Part shown: positions 27,815 to 34,124 of the stretch, in pieces
Position numbering within the stretch: position 1 is the stretch's first letter
Layout: the number at the start of each line of letters is the position of its first letter
NCBI GenBank assembly: GCA_022563685.1
Contig: JADFMY010000021.1
Span: forward strand, 1-34,124
Direction of reading: 5' to 3'
Length of the DNA: 34,124 bases
Source: Pseudomonadota bacterium
GTDB lineage: Bacteria > Pseudomonadota > Gammaproteobacteria > GCA-001735895
Program-made: the position numbers and the translations under genes
Notes under the pieces: model-generated
What the model saw: only the letters and a program-made list of their open reading frames with translations
Databases searched by the model: none
What the model was told of the DNA's origin: nothing

Positions 27815-30800
27815 CTACTGATACTCCAGGTAATATTCCCCGCCACCCAGGTGTTTCTCCAGTGCCAATAGGCATAGCTCGGATGGCATGACCGACCATG
27901 GCTCGCTGGTTTTGAGCTGGTATTCGTAACCGTTTCGTTGTAAATGGAATACCACGGGTGTCGCATCTCTCGCCTGGTACTGGTTGAGGATTTTGATCAA
28001 ATGATTGACCGATTGATCGGCATTGCCATTTAACACAATATGCAAAGCGCGGGCATGGTTGAGGCGATAAACGTCGAGCAGTTGAACCTGCGTCGCGCGA
28101 ATCTTGACGCCATTGTTAAAGCTGTCGAAGGCGATCCCTCCATCGACCACCCAGATCAGGTCTTTTTGTACCAGGTCTTCAATCTGTTGTAGCATCTTAG
28201 GGACGATGCGAACTTCTATGCGGCCACTCCGATCGTCGAGCGTTACGAACGATTCACGGCCATTGAAGCCATTCTTTGTACGAATATCGACGACTAATCC
28301 GCATACCCTGGTCGCCTGTTCCTTTTGCCGATAACCATTTTCTGCTGCCATGCCGGTATCGAGTTTATCCAGCCACTGAGCAAAACTGGTGGGTGCGATC
28401 TGTTTTACTTCCTTTTCGAGCATTAGCAATGGATGCCCGGTGAGGAATAAACCCAGGGCTTCCTTTTCGAGTAACAGTCGATGCATTTCATCCCAGGGCT
28501 CGCAATGCGGCAATGCCCTGGCGACCTTCGACGGCTCTATCGAGGCGAACATATCGGTCATGCCGGCGTCGAGATTGTTTTGCTGCTGTTCTGCTGCCTG
28601 CAGGGCGTTGGGTAAATGCGCGAGTAGCGCCGCGCGGTTATCGGAAAAACAGTCCAGCGCCCCGGCCTTGATCAGGGCTTCGATCACCTTGCGATTCGAT
28701 CGGGACGAATCGATGCGCTCACAAAAATCGTCCAGCGATTGATAACTGCTATCCTTCCGAGCGGCGATAATGGTTTCGATCGCCGAGTGGCCCACTCCCT
28801 TGACTGCTCCCAGGCCGTAAAACACCTTTGCTGCATCAACAGGCGCAAAACGATAGTTGGACTGGTTAATATCGGGCGGTAATATCTCCAGATGCATGGC
28901 CCGGCATTCGTCGATCAGAGTGACGATCTTGTCGGTGTTATCCATATCTGCGGACAGTACCGCAGCCATGAACTCTGCCGGATAATGGGCTTTTAACCAG
29001 GCGGTCTGGTAGGCAATCAATGCGTAAGCCGCTGAATGCGATTTATTAAAGCCATATTCGCCAAACTTTTCCATGATGTCGAAAATCTTGCTGGCAACGT
29101 TGTAGTCAACATTGTTGGCAACCGCACCATCGGTAAACACTGCGCGCTGCTGCTTCATTTCGAGCACTTTTTTCTTACCCATCGCACGGCGTAATATATC
29201 GGCGCCACCGAGCGTGTAACCTGCAAGAACCTGCGCTATTTGCATCACCTGCTCCTGGTAAAGGATAACGCCATAGGTGGGTTTCAGTATCGCTTCCAGA
29301 TCAGGATGCGAGTATTCAAACTCGGCGCCATTCTTGCGATCGATAAAATCATCCACCATACCCGACTGCAAAGGCCCAGGTCTAAACAATGCCACCAGTG
29401 CGATAATGTCTTCGAATGTAGCCGGTTTTAACCGGCGTATCAGGTCTTTCATGCCACGGGATTCGAGCTGAAACACCGCGGTGGTCTTATGCGCCTGTAG
29501 CAGTTCGAAACTCGCCGTGTCGTCTAATGGAAGGCGTTCTATATCCAGCTTTTTCTCCGGATTCCTCGCGTTAATCGATTCGACCGCCCAGTCGATGATG
29601 GTCAGGGTTCGTAGCCCCAGAAAGTCGAACTTGACGAGACCGATTGCTTCAACGTCGTCCTTGTCGAATTGCGATACCAGTCCCGAACCGCCTTTTTCGC
29701 AATAAGTCGGGGTAAAGTCGATTAAATCGCTCGGCGCTATCACCACCCCGCCCGCATGCTTGCCAACATTTCGAACCAACCCTTCGAGTGACAGCGCCAT
29801 GTCGATCAGCATCGTGACTTCTTCATCTTGCTCGTATAGCTGGCGTAGGTCTTCTTCACGTTCCATCGCCTTTTCCAGCGTGATGCCAACTTCAAACGGC
29901 ACCAATTTCGCGATCCGATCGACAAACCCGTAAGGATGGGACATGACACGCCCGACATCGCGGATAACGGCCCTGGCTGCCATGGTTCCATAAGTGATGA
30001 TTTGCGACACCTGGTTGCGGCCGTAATGGTCCGCCACATATTCGATCACTTCGTCGCGCCTTTCCATGCAAAAATCGATATCGAAATCCGGCATGGACAC
30101 GCGTTCGGGATTCATAAAACGCTCGAACAGCAAATCGTATTCGAGCGGGTCGATATTGGTAATATAGAGCGCGTAAGCGACTAGCGACCCGGCACCGGAC
30201 CCCCGCCCCGGGCCTACCGGTATCGCATGCTTTTTGGCCCAGTCGATGAAGTCCATCACGATCAGGAAATAGCCGGGGAATCCCATCTGTACGATCACAT
30301 CGAGTTCGGTCTGGAGCCGATCATAATAGGTCTGGCGTTCGATGGACTGACCTGGCGGGCATTGTTCCTGGAGAAATTCCAGTCGCGACTCCAGCCCCTG
30401 TTCCGACGCGTGGCGGAGGTAACTGTCGATCGAGTAGCCATCAGGTACCGGGTACTCGGGCAGGTAATGCTCTCCAAGATTGAGGCGCACATTACAGGCT
30501 CTGGCAATATTGACCGTGTTTTCAATCGCTTCTGGAATATCGGCAAATAACTCAACCATTTCATCGCTGCTGCGCAAATACTGTTGCGGCGAATAATTTT
30601 TGGGCCGCCGCTCGTCCTGCAGCGTGAATCCACTACAGATACAAACCCGCACTTCGTGGGATTCAAAGTCTGCAGTATCTATAAAGCGTACATCGTTAGT
30701 AGCCACTAGCGGCACCTGAATCTTCGACGAGAATTCAATCGCCTGTTGAATATAAGCTTCCTCGTAGGGGCGCCCGGTGCGCTGTAGTTCGAGAATATAA

Positions 30801-31291
30801 TTGCCCCCAAAAATCACCAGCCACTGCGCCAGGTAGTCGCTTGCCAGCTCCTGGTTTTGCATTTTCAGGGCCTGGCCGATATCGCCTTCGAGATTGGCCG
30901 ACAGTGCGATCAACCCGGTTGACGCTTCGCGTAACCATTCGATATCGATCGTGGGTCGGTCGGCTAACTGACCTTCCCGGTAAGACCGGGAAACCAGACG
31001 TTTGAGATTCAGATAGCCCGTATCGTCCTGGCACAGTAAAACCAGTCGACTCAGTGATTCCTTGCGATCTGGATGACGGACCCAAACTTCGGAACCAAAT
31101 ATTGGCTTGATACCACTGGCGGTAGCAGCCTTGAACAGTTTTACTATTGCGAACAGATTCGATTCGTCGGTGAGTGCAACCGCGCCCATTCCCCTGTGTC
31201 GCGTTTCAGCGATTAACTGCTTGAGTCGAATCGTACTGTCGACCAGTGAAAATTCGGAATGTAAATGTAGATGGACGAACTGATTGGGCAT
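27815..31291 (-). CDS. dnaE: DNA polymerase III subunit alpha
   Basis: DnaE is the replicative polymerase catalytic subunit. The 1158 residues contain the N-terminal PHP domain (FVHLHLHSEFSLVDS), the palm with GPGRGSGAGSLVAYAL and the catalytic Asp pair in MPDFDIDFCMERRDEVI, the thumb/fingers with GMKDLIRRLKP and RRAMGKKK, the helix-hairpin-helix region (GLGAVKGVGHSAIETI) and the OB fold (RVCGLVVDIRTKNGFNGRE). Length is typical of proteobacterial DnaE1. It starts five bases after rnhB, so the two form an operon. The usual downstream accA is elsewhere in this window. Confidence 0.98.
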   Translation of the reverse strand: MPNQFVHLHLHSEFSLVDSTIRLKQLIAETRHRGMGAVALTDESNLFAIVKLFKAATASGIKPIFGSEVWVRHPDRKESLSRLVLLCQDDTGYLNLKRLVSRSYREGQLADRPTIDIEWLREASTGLIALSANLEGDIGQALKMQNQELASDYLAQWLVIFGGNYILELQRTGRPYEEAYIQQAIEFSSKIQVPLVATNDVRFIDTADFESHEVRVCICSGFTLQDERRPKNYSPQQYLRSSDEMVELFADIPEAIENTVNIARACNVRLNLGEHYLPEYPVPDGYSIDSYLRHASEQGLESRLEFLQEQCPPGQSIERQTYYDRLQTELDVIVQMGFPGYFLIVMDFIDWAKKHAIPVGPGRGSGAGSLVAYALYITNIDPLEYDLLFERFMNPERVSMPDFDIDFCMERRDEVIEYVADHYGRNQVSQIITYGTMAARAVIRDVGRVMSHPYGFVDRIAKLVPFEVGITLEKAMEREEDLRQLYEQDEEVTMLIDMALSLEGLVRNVGKHAGGVVIAPSDLIDFTPTYCEKGGSGLVSQFDKDDVEAIGLVKFDFLGLRTLTIIDWAVESINARNPEKKLDIERLPLDDTASFELLQAHKTTAVFQLESRGMKDLIRRLKPATFEDIIALVALFRPGPLQSGMVDDFIDRKNGAEFEYSHPDLEAILKPTYGVILYQEQVMQIAQVLAGYTLGGADILRRAMGKKKVLEMKQQRAVFTDGAVANNVDYNVASKIFDIMEKFGEYGFNKSHSAAYALIAYQTAWLKAHYPAEFMAAVLSADMDNTDKIVTLIDECRAMHLEILPPDINQSNYRFAPVDAAKVFYGLGAVKGVGHSAIETIIAARKDSSYQSLDDFCERIDSSRSNRKVIEALIKAGALDCFSDNRAALLAHLPNALQAAEQQQNNLDAGMTDMFASIEPSKVARALPHCEPWDEMHRLLLEKEALGLFLTGHPLLMLEKEVKQIAPTSFAQWLDKLDTGMAAENGYRQKEQATRVCGLVVDIRTKNGFNGRESFVTLDDRSGRIEVRIVPKMLQQIEDLVQKDLIWVVDGGIAFDSFNNGVKIRATQVQLLDVYRLNHARALHIVLNGNADQSVNHLIKILNQYQARDATPVVFHLQRNGYEYQLKTSEPWSVMPSELCLLALEKHLGGGEYYLEYQ

Positions 31292-31296
31292 CTGGG

Positions 31297-31935
31297 TCAG
31301 GTCCCACTCGCTGTCGGGTTTTCGGGAGCAATTACCCCTGCTCGGTGCGATCCGCTCAATACCTCTTTGACCGGTTTGAAACTATGGCGATGTACTGCAC
31401 AGGCGCCATATTGCTTGAGAAGGCTCCGATGCCGTTGCGTCGGATAACCCTTATGCCTGGCAAACTGATACTGTGGATAGCGCTGGTCGAGCACCATCAT
31501 TTGCCGGTCCCGGTATTCCTTGGCCAATATCGAGGCCGCTGAAATACAGGGTTCTGACAAATCGCCTTTCACTATAGCCTGCAACTCAAAGCCCGCCAAA
31601 TCAGGTAATCTATTACCATCGATTAGCACAAGACCGGGCATAGGTTGAAGTTGAAGAACTGCCCTCTTCATCGCCAATAAACTGGCTTGCAGGATATTGA
31701 ACCTGTCGATTTCCTCGATACTGGCTTCTGCCACTGCCCAGACCATCGCTCTTTGTTTAATCTGCACTTCGAGTTCTGCTCTTTTTTTGGCCGAAAGTTT
31801 CTTCGAATCGGATAATCCCGGAATTGGGTGCCTTGCGTCGAGGATCACTGCGGCGGCGACAACCGGCCCGGCTAGCGGCCCTCTTCCGGCTTCGTCTACG
31901 CCTGCTACCAATTTAATTACCCGTTTCTCAGTCAT
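31297..31935 (-). CDS. rnhB: Ribonuclease HII
   Basis: RNase HII removes ribonucleotides misincorporated into DNA. The 212-residue protein shows [23 protein letters not shown] (catalytic Asp14-Glu15), [22 protein letters not shown] (catalytic Asp), [14 protein letters not shown] with the DEADK-like region, and [17 protein letters not shown]. In E. coli the order is lpxB-rnhB-dnaE on one strand. Here rnhB-dnaE is kept but faces away from the gnnA-gnnB-lpxB string, which points to a local inversion. Confidence 0.97.
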
Positions 31936-32010: not shown

Positions 32011-32955
32011 ATGTCAAAATTAATCAAAGTTGCAATTGTAGGTGTCGGTCATTTAGGAAAATGGCATGCCGAAAAATATGCCGCGTCACCTAACTGCGAA
32101 TTGCTTGCCATTGTCGACAGCGATCTCGAAGTAGCAAGGCAGATCGCGCAAAAACATGGCGTACAGGCTTATTCCAACTATAAGGATATCCTGTCACAGG
32201 TCGATGCGATTAGCCTGGTGGTACCGACCAGGTTGCATTATAAAATTGCACGCGACATTCTGGAAGCGGGAATTCACTGCCTGGTCGAAAAACCGATTAC
32301 CGAAACCGTCGCGGAAGCATCCGAATTAATTCTGCTAGCAAGCCGGAATAAACTAATCCTGCAGGTTGGACACATCGAGCGATTTAATACTGTGATGATG
32401 GGTATAGAAGAAATATTAAAGGAACCTCAATTTATCGAATCGACCCGGCTCGCTCCATTTACCCTGCGCGCCACCGACGTGAGCGTCATTCTGGATTTAA
32501 TGATTCACGATATCGACCTGATTCTCGACCTGGTCCGCAGCCCCATTCGGCATATATCCGCCAGCGGTATTTCGGTGCTTTCCGATACCATCGATATAGC
32601 CAATGCAAGAATCGAGTTCGACAATAATTGCGTCGCGAATGTCACCGCGAGCCGGATCAGTCAAAAACGTGAACGAAAACTGCGTATATTCCAGAAAGAT
32701 ACGTATATCTCGGCCGATTTGCAGAAGAAAATACTTGCGGTCAATCGTAAGGGGGAAACCGATAACGAGGCCGGTTTCAAGGATATTATCCACAAAGAAA
32801 GTAAATATGAAGATAATGACGCACTGAACCTGGAAATACAGGACTTCATCCACGCCATCCAGACTCAGGGTCGTCCACGAGTCAGTGGTGAAGATGGCAG
32901 GCGTGCCCTCGAAACAGCGATTGCAATAACCTCTCAGATCAGAGACAGACTTTGA
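32011..32955 (+). CDS. gnnA: Gfo/Idh/MocA oxidoreductase, probable UDP-GlcNAc 3-dehydrogenase
   Basis: From the ATG at 32011 the protein has 314 residues. The N-terminal Rossmann fold begins VAIVGVGHLGKWHAEKYA, and CLVEKPITETVAEA is the family EKP motif that carries a key Lys. The C-terminal alpha/beta domain has LMIHDIDLILDLV, with the expected His. Together with the following aminotransferase and lpxB this fits GnnA, which oxidises the 3-OH of UDP-GlcNAc with NAD+. An ATG at 31981 would add ten residues and has AAGGG 12 bases upstream; 32011 has no clear ribosome site, so the start is open. Another sugar dehydrogenase of the WbpB/WlbA type cannot be excluded. Confidence 0.75.
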   Translation: MSKLIKVAIVGVGHLGKWHAEKYAASPNCELLAIVDSDLEVARQIAQKHGVQAYSNYKDILSQVDAISLVVPTRLHYKIARDILEAGIHCLVEKPITETVAEASELILLASRNKLILQVGHIERFNTVMMGIEEILKEPQFIESTRLAPFTLRATDVSVILDLMIHDIDLILDLVRSPIRHISASGISVLSDTIDIANARIEFDNNCVANVTASRISQKRERKLRIFQKDTYISADLQKKILAVNRKGETDNEAGFKDIIHKESKYEDNDALNLEIQDFIHAIQTQGRPRVSGEDGRRALETAIAITSQIRDRL

Positions 32956-34040
32956 ACATACCCATGGTTGACCTGAAGGGTCAATACGAAAATCTGAAAA
33001 GCGAAATTGACACGGCGCTACTAAAGGCCCTGTCCGAAGCTTGCTTTATCCTTGGCCCCAATGTACAGGCGTTTGAGCAGGAAACCGCCGATTACCTGGG
33101 CGCCAAACATGCTATCGGTTGTGCCTCGGGTACCGATGCATTACATCTGCCACTACTCGCAGCAGGTATCAAGGCCGGAGACGAGGTGATTACCACTGCT
33201 TTCACCTTTATCGCAACCGCCGAGGCAATTCGTTATGTCGGTGCCATACCCGTTTTTGTCGATATAGATCCAGAAACCCTGAATATCGACACATCAAAAA
33301 TCAATATTGCGATAAGCGATAAAACGCGCGCGATTATTCCGGTCCATTTGTTTGGTCAGCCAGCAGATATGGATGAGATCCGATCAATTGCCGTGCACCA
33401 CGGCTTATTCGTTCTTGAAGACTGCGCGCAGTCCTTTGGCAGCGCTTATCGCAAGCGCATGACTGGCGCGATAGGTGACGCCGGTGCATTCAGCTTTTTT
33501 CCAAGCAAGAATCTTGGCTGCTATGGGGATGGTGGATTGATCGCGACCAATGATGATGAAATCGCGCGTCAGGTCAGGATCTACCGCAACCACGGCAGTA
33601 GTGAGCAATACCATCACGATGTGATCGGTTTCAATAGCCGTCTCGATGAATTGCAGGCGGTCATTTTGAGGATCAAGTTGAAGCATATCGATGAGTACAA
33701 TCAGAAGCGTCTTCGCATTGCACAGAGCTATAACAGGCTACTCACAGGTAGTGAATTGCAAACACCTCTGATACCGGATGACCGTGACCATATTTTCCAC
33801 CAATACACCCTGTTGAGCGACCGGCGCGATCAAATTCGTGAAGCGGTTATCGCCAGGCAAATTGCCTGTGCGGTGTATTACCCGATTCCTTTGCATCAGC
33901 AAAAAGCGTTTGCCGATACTCATCAAGAACCCTTACCGATTACCGAATCTGTTTCCAGGCGTTGCCTGTCGTTACCGATTTACCCTGAAATGACTGAACA
34001 GCAGGTACAGGCCGTTTGTGAAGCCGTCCTCGGCGCATGA
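32952..34040 (+). CDS. gnnB: DegT/DnrJ/EryC1 aminotransferase, probable UDP-3-keto-GlcNAc aminotransferase
   Basis: The 362-residue PLP enzyme shows the family start IPMVDLKGQYENLKSEI, GCASGTDALHLPL for phosphate binding, PVHLFGQPADMDEI, LEDCAQSFGSAY, and FFPSKNLGCYGDGG with the Schiff-base Lys186. The TTG at 32952 is the likely start because it keeps the conserved IPMVDL stretch; it overlaps the gnnA stop by 4 bases. Its ATGA junction with lpxB suggests that it acts in lipid A synthesis. GnnB converts the 3-keto sugar to UDP-GlcNAc3N with glutamate. ArnB- or WbpE-like roles are the alternatives. Confidence 0.78.
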   Translation: MNIPMVDLKGQYENLKSEIDTALLKALSEACFILGPNVQAFEQETADYLGAKHAIGCASGTDALHLPLLAAGIKAGDEVITTAFTFIATAEAIRYVGAIPVFVDIDPETLNIDTSKINIAISDKTRAIIPVHLFGQPADMDEIRSIAVHHGLFVLEDCAQSFGSAYRKRMTGAIGDAGAFSFFPSKNLGCYGDGGLIATNDDEIARQVRIYRNHGSSEQYHHDVIGFNSRLDELQAVILRIKLKHIDEYNQKRLRIAQSYNRLLTGSELQTPLIPDDRDHIFHQYTLLSDRRDQIREAVIARQIACAVYYPIPLHQQKAFADTHQEPLPITESVSRRCLSLPIYPEMTEQQVQAVCEAVLGA

Positions 34041-34124
34041 TGGAAAAGCCCCACATTATGATTTTGGCTGGTGAAGCCTCCGGTGATGCGCATGCGGCCG
34101 AGTTTGTTGCCAGGATCCAGCAAC
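34037..34124 (+). CDS. lpxB: Lipid-A-disaccharide synthase LpxB, N-terminal fragment
   Basis: The gene starts at ATG 34037 within the gnnB stop (ATGA) and runs off the right edge after 29 codons. The visible part MMEKPHIMILAGEASGDAHA contains the GExSGD motif at the N-terminus of LpxB, a GT19 glycosyltransferase that joins lipid X and UDP-2,3-diacylglucosamine. Only the extreme N-terminus is visible, so the call rests on that motif and context. Confidence 0.85.
   Translation, partial: MMEKPHIMILAGEASGDAHAAEFVARIQQ

Follow-up and report, generated by a model that had tools for sequence, protein, structure and literature searches.

A gnnA-gnnB-lpxB operon in a gammaproteobacterium that probably serves lipid A built, in full or in part, on a 3-amino sugar

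The locus and its gene products

The stretch of DNA analysed (the window, 34,124 nucleotides) is contig C181 of the assembly of an uncultured gammaproteobacterium (G000; 2.99 Mb in 201 contigs, 92% complete, 6% contamination). Its end carries three genes on the forward strand: gnnA (32011–32955; ATG at 32011, stop TGA at 32953–32955; 314 amino acids), encoding a Gfo/Idh/MocA protein and candidate UDP-GlcNAc 3-dehydrogenase; gnnB (32952–34040; TTG start at 32952, stop at 34038–34040; 362 amino acids), encoding a DegT/DnrJ aminotransferase; and the first 29 codons of lpxB (34037–34124; ATG at 34037), which is cut by the contig end. The genes are joined by 4-base overlaps, TTGA between gnnA and gnnB and ATGA between gnnB and lpxB, as the first-pass annotation had described, and the families it gave to the two enzymes agree with the profile matches (PF01408, 105 bits, for GnnA; PF01041, 420 bits, for GnnB). 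The joining of gnn genes to lpx genes, by which the GlcN3N lipid A pathway is recognised, is found at this locus. On the other side of gnnA lies the divergent rnhB (31297–31935, reverse strand), followed by dnaE (27815–31291, reverse strand).

The remainder of lpxB is on contig C23, which begins within the gene (C23:12–1058, 283 bits to TIGR00215); compared by eye, the two contig ends agree over 21 bases except for two letters, and the assembly break falls within lpxB. That lpxA is not directly upstream and rnhB is divergent instead was read correctly in the first annotation: lpxA is found on contig C81, in the order lpxD-fabZ-lpxA, and encodes the sole LpxA found in the 92%-complete assembly. 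With lpxC on contig C33, the genome has lpxA, lpxD, fabZ, lpxB and lpxC. Compared with the closest relative (G295), dN/dS is 0.137 for gnnA and 0.105 for gnnB, values that point to two genuine genes under purifying selection, and the TTG start of gnnB is supported by an ATG at the same site in that relative. A scan for promoters and terminators gave three promoter-like sites and one terminator-like site, against 3.5 and 2.4 in shuffled sequences.

The best PDB match of GnnA is 7bvj, which we take to be the GnnA of Acidithiobacillus ferrooxidans (E 3.7e-59; 108 of 299 aligned residues identical, 36%), and the second structure reaches only 7.3e-16 (among the best 60 of 89 matches); 3q2i and 3q2k, presumably structures of the WbpB/WlbA type, match with E values of 2e-9 and 8e-7. 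The EKP and DLMIHD motifs, invariant across 17 sequences, are kept. No NCBIfam equivalog scored above its own cut-off for GnnA or GnnB; an archaeal UDP-GlcNAc 3-dehydrogenase model (NF040723; 210.9 bits, cut-off 450) was the top of 14 families for GnnA. GnnB keeps the PLP lysine in an SFFPSK motif aligned with WbpE (the same lysine is alanine in WbpE entry 3nys), and among PDB entries it matches 7b0d best (391 bits), WbpE being the second-best distinct protein (322 bits). A quick 47-row tree had 7b0d, WbpE and QdtB as the only outside references and left 13 of 44 inner branches open. In it the rows nearest to GnnB come from gnn loci (path 0.44–1.1), and 7b0d (1.63), WbpE (1.97) and QdtB are further away. 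A tree against WbpE had been proposed as a check in the first annotation; within the limits of three outside references, GnnB groups with gnn-locus aminotransferases and not with the O-antigen enzyme. Judged by these matches, GnnA and GnnB fit gnn homologues better than WbpB and WbpE, which work on a uronate with the same chemistry at C3.

Gene order in the class and in the family

A class sample of 274 genomes, this one included, was searched for GnnA. Strong matches (E ≤ 2.3e-54, the next value being 5.8e-31) occur in 99 genomes, again with this one counted, and linkage was scored by a scripted positional rule in the 57 of them for which the gnnA locus was fetched. Among these 57 loci, gnnB is present in 41, lpxB in 38 and a divergent rnhB in 33 (G000 and its congener G265 included), and the full order, with rnhB divergent from gnnA-gnnB-lpxB, in 20. 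Many of the loci also have lpxD-fabZ-lpxA pointing toward this order from the other side, so that the arrangement resembles an ordinary lpx operon in which gnnA-gnnB-lpxB has been inverted. Over the whole set, a GnnB-like gene lies within 6 kb of gnnA in 64 of the 99 GnnA-bearing genomes and not in 35, in six of which no GnnB was found at E ≤ 1e-80. Named gnnA loci (the best 80 of at least 589) have gnnB nearby in 35 cases and lpxB in 51. All five species-named Legionella among these best 80 have gnnA directly before lpxB and divergent from rnhB; gnnA directly before lpxB, with gnnB not found beside it, was also seen in sulfate-reducer-type records of the same set. Two named Thioalkalivibrio strains, ALMg11 and ALJ24, share the order of the present locus. 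The order that we take to be that of A. ferrooxidans, with gnn between lpxA and lpxB, occurs in G026 and G172. Another genome (G126) has lpxB directly after lpxA and a gnnB-gnnA pair just beyond, in the opposite direction.

Within the family of this organism, gnnA is present in 32 of 41 genomes and was not found in nine, two of which are 62% and 81% complete; in the sister genus it was not found in five of eight. The family linkage count takes in gnnA, gnnB and lpxB, with rnhB left out: gnnA and gnnB are adjacent in all 17 loci read (from 31 other GnnA-bearing genomes) and lpxB is next in 15, the contigs ending in the other two. In one sister-genus genome (G154) the divergent open frames of rnhB and lpxB are separated by about 630 bases, in which tblastn gave no match to gnnA or gnnB; this suggests a clean loss of gnnA-gnnB, a gain elsewhere being an alternative.

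The first-pass annotation had described the cluster as rearranged. This does not hold for the organism studied here, since the same order is common across class and family. The order is widely shared, and the link with lipid A is strong.

LpxA residues and the second LpxA

Three residues of LpxA (K76, Q104 and E200 in E. coli numbering) were followed across the class as markers of acceptor choice, a set inferred here and not a published criterion. The GnnA-lacking sample comprises 79 of the 175 genomes without strong GnnA (29 top-ranked and 50 lower-ranked, picked by rank and not at random). The GnnA-bearing genomes with a single LpxA number 63 of 66, with G024, G079 and G164 left out, and the two-copy genomes give 35 main LpxA rows, G193 and G215 adding near-duplicate or extra main copies. 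An LpxA not beside fabZ or lpxD was called LpxA2 (36 rows, three of them from the one-hit genomes G024, G079 and G164).

K76 is kept in 77 of 79 GnnA-lacking genomes, 36 of 63 GnnA-bearing genomes with a single LpxA, 32 of 34 main LpxAs of two-copy genomes and 3 of 36 LpxA2 rows; the corresponding counts are 60/79, 7/63, 15/35 and 2/35 for Q104 and 70/79, 17/63, 27/35 and 1/36 for E200. Fisher values for this association ignore relatedness. An independent-pair test on well-supported branches of the LpxA tree (11 pairs) went in the same direction, the opposite being found never or almost never, with median p values of 0.125 (K76), 0.031 (Q104) and 0.125 (E200), so that with relatedness controlled the association of these residues with GnnA is only suggestive.

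At least two LpxA hits (E ≤ 1e-40) were found in 33 of 99 GnnA-bearing genomes against 1 of the 175 others. Several LpxA2 genes adjoin gnnA or gnnB in the class loci, and the best match of the one LpxA2-type row tested is the LpxA of Leptospira. Across the class, changes at the LpxA residues or a second LpxA resembling that of Leptospira are thus more frequent in GnnA-bearing genomes than in others, a tendency that is weaker after control for relatedness. Simiduia aestuariiviva, whose genome has gnnA-gnnB-lpxB, carries a tandem lpxA pair, one S/K/V at positions 76/104/200 and one canonical (K76/Q104/E200). The only genome of the present family with two LpxA hits (G308) has Q104 in the main copy and R76/A104/I200 in the second.

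The Leptospira LpxA has G/E/V at these positions, and the lipid A of this genus is described in a passage of PMC10248169 as entirely amide-linked. The main LpxA of five Legionella has T/K/V (the second LpxA of L. bononiensis K/G/E), two Thioalkalivibrio have S/K/V and S/K/I, two desulfo-bacteria H/K/I, Geobacter K/S/I, HTCC5015 K/E/I, and G026 and G172 K/K/R; K76 and E200 are retained together in Wenzhouxiangella (K/D/E), Limnohabitans (K/N/E) and the close relative Ww580 (K/D/E). Some gnn-bearing genomes thus keep K76, and a gnn cluster does not require its loss. According to an excerpt of PMC7072397, Lys72 of the Pseudomonas LpxA, equated in the present analysis with E. coli K76, touches the 6-hydroxyl of GlcNAc in a docking pose, and Phe (L. 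interrogans) and Met (B. thailandensis) stand at its place; the present alignments differ from that excerpt, with Gly in Leptospira and Lys in Burkholderia (4eqy) at position 76.

The LpxA of the organism studied here is K76/D104/E200, that is, changed at one of the three markers, position 104. Inspection of LpxA for residues selecting the 3-amino substrate, proposed in the first annotation, thus turned out against the expectation, and the residue test was discarded as proof of GlcN3N lipid A in this genome, its LpxA being canonical at two of three positions. The combination of K76 and E200 without Q104 hardly discriminates, because it is found in 14 of 79 GnnA-lacking and 14 of 63 GnnA-bearing genomes with a single LpxA.

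In the family (22 of 32 GnnA-bearing and all nine GnnA-lacking genomes checked), K76 and E200 are unchanged in every row with data, with or without GnnA. Where there are data for residue 104, it is Asp or Glu in 16 of 21 genomes that bear GnnA against 2 of 8 that lack it (p 0.028; few, related genomes). Among the GnnA-lacking genomes, the two with Asp or Glu are also the two of lowest completeness (62% and 81%), and their assemblies may simply have missed gnnA; leaving them out, an exclusion chosen post hoc, gives 0 of 6 (p 0.0016). In the sister genus, Asp or Glu stands at 104 in 3 of 3 GnnA-bearing and 0 of 5 GnnA-lacking genomes (p 0.018; few, related genomes). The LpxAs of GnnA-lacking family genomes are 70–71% identical to the one studied here (70% in G154), and these similar enzymes, in relatives without gnnA, must use UDP-GlcNAc.

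The probable lipid A and known systems

It is likely, on the evidence of gene order and homology, that gnnA-gnnB-lpxB is a lipid A operon and that the lipid A is of the GlcN3N type with amide-linked 3-acyl chains, in full or in part. Because gnnA-gnnB is joined end to end with lpxB, the lipid A of the outer membrane is probably at least partly built on the 3-amino sugar, and a lipid A role of the pair is well supported. GnnA would oxidise the 3-hydroxyl of UDP-GlcNAc with NAD+, the 3-ketone would be transaminated by GnnB to UDP-GlcNAc3N, and LpxA would acylate the 3-amine of this sugar, so that all or part of the lipid A would carry GlcN3N with its 3-acyl chains in amide linkage. The activities of GnnA and GnnB, the substrate of LpxA and the structure of lipid A are what we infer from the genes.

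The first-pass annotation had expected a GlcN3N-type, base-resistant lipid A; its link of the cluster to lipid A stands, and the uniform form exceeds the evidence, since LpxA keeps K76 and E200 and LpxAs 70–71% identical to it serve family genomes that lack gnnA. In our view the chances of a mixed or hybrid backbone and of uniform GlcN3N are about equal, because the sole LpxA found is canonical at K76 and E200. A uniform backbone, with four amide-linked primary chains, would require the single LpxA to be selective through changes other than K76 and E200. It is a possible reading, somewhat short of an even chance: only one LpxA was found in the genome, residue 104 tends to go with GnnA in the family, and 7 of the 24 genomes with a single LpxA and gnnA linked to lpxB keep K76 and E200 without Q104; set against this are the retention of K76 and E200 here and the similar LpxAs of relatives without gnnA.

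Equally tentative is a picture in which gammaproteobacteria follow two routes, either retuning a single LpxA at K76, Q104 and E200 or adding a Leptospira-like LpxA2 to a canonical LpxA, and in which the present family is intermediate: residue 104 would follow the gain and loss of gnnA-gnnB, K76 and E200 would stay, and the single LpxA would take both sugars, giving a mixed backbone.

An operon expressed little or not at all, leaving lipid A essentially of the ordinary GlcN type, would agree with an LpxA canonical at K76 and E200 and with the nine of 41 relatives in which gnnA was not found; it is nevertheless unlikely, given dN/dS values of about 0.1 for both genes and the keeping of gnnA in 32 of 41 family genomes. 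Least probable of all is that the 3-amino sugar is made for O-antigen or some other glycan and that the pair stands beside lpxB by chance. In favour of this are GnnA-bearing genomes such as G242 and G043, where gnnA-gnnB lies away from a canonical lpxA-lpxB locus and LpxA is fully canonical (K76/Q104/E200); it was rejected as the main reading in view of the 4-base overlap with lpxB, the gnnA-gnnB-lpxB adjacency in the family, the far better match of GnnA to 7bvj than to 3q2i or 3q2k, the GnnB tree, and the 10 other window ORFs scanned, none of which resembles part of a glycan cluster.

The presence of strong GnnA in 99 of 274 sampled genomes suggests that lipid A with a diamino sugar could be more widespread in Gammaproteobacteria than the few characterised cases; no survey of gnnA and gnnB in this class was among the matches listed in the open-access PMC literature. 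Close relatives with and without gnnA, and LpxA pairs such as the Simiduia tandem, make the acceptor choice of LpxA testable with wild-type enzymes.

The pathway itself is a known one in a common, conserved arrangement, and no new system. The same two enzyme families lie next to lpxB in A. ferrooxidans; unlike there, lpxA is found elsewhere here (on C81, with lpxD-fabZ) and the divergent rnhB precedes gnnA. The O-antigen enzymes WbpB and WbpE belong to the same superfamilies but match with lower scores than the gnn type, and WbpE is further away in the GnnB tree. The two-step conversion by GnnA and GnnB of A. ferrooxidans is described in a section of PMC8036547.

The arrangement resembles that of Legionella in the divergent rnhB and the downstream lpxB, and Legionella GnnA is 49–53% identical; it differs in that the five species-named loci have no gnnB beside gnnA and their main LpxA is T76/K104/V200 rather than K/D/E. 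L. pneumophila, a species outside those five loci, is reported in part of PMC7956469 to have GlcN3N in its lipid A. In Capnocytophaga canimorsus, gnnA and gnnB with lpxA and lpxA' are linked, in an extract of PMC3342949, to a hybrid GlcN3N-GlcN backbone; the pathway is the same, with two LpxAs there and one found here. Phyllobacterium, Bradyrhizobium and Brucella have gnnA and gnnB away from lpxA-lpxB, as far as the excerpted text of PMC5644692 describes them; neither there nor here is lpxA a neighbour, but by that text gnn is apart from lpxB in those genera and here it overlaps lpxB. Compared with the selective LpxAs of the Leptospira and Legionella type, finally, the LpxA of this organism retains K76 and E200 and is changed at position 104 only.
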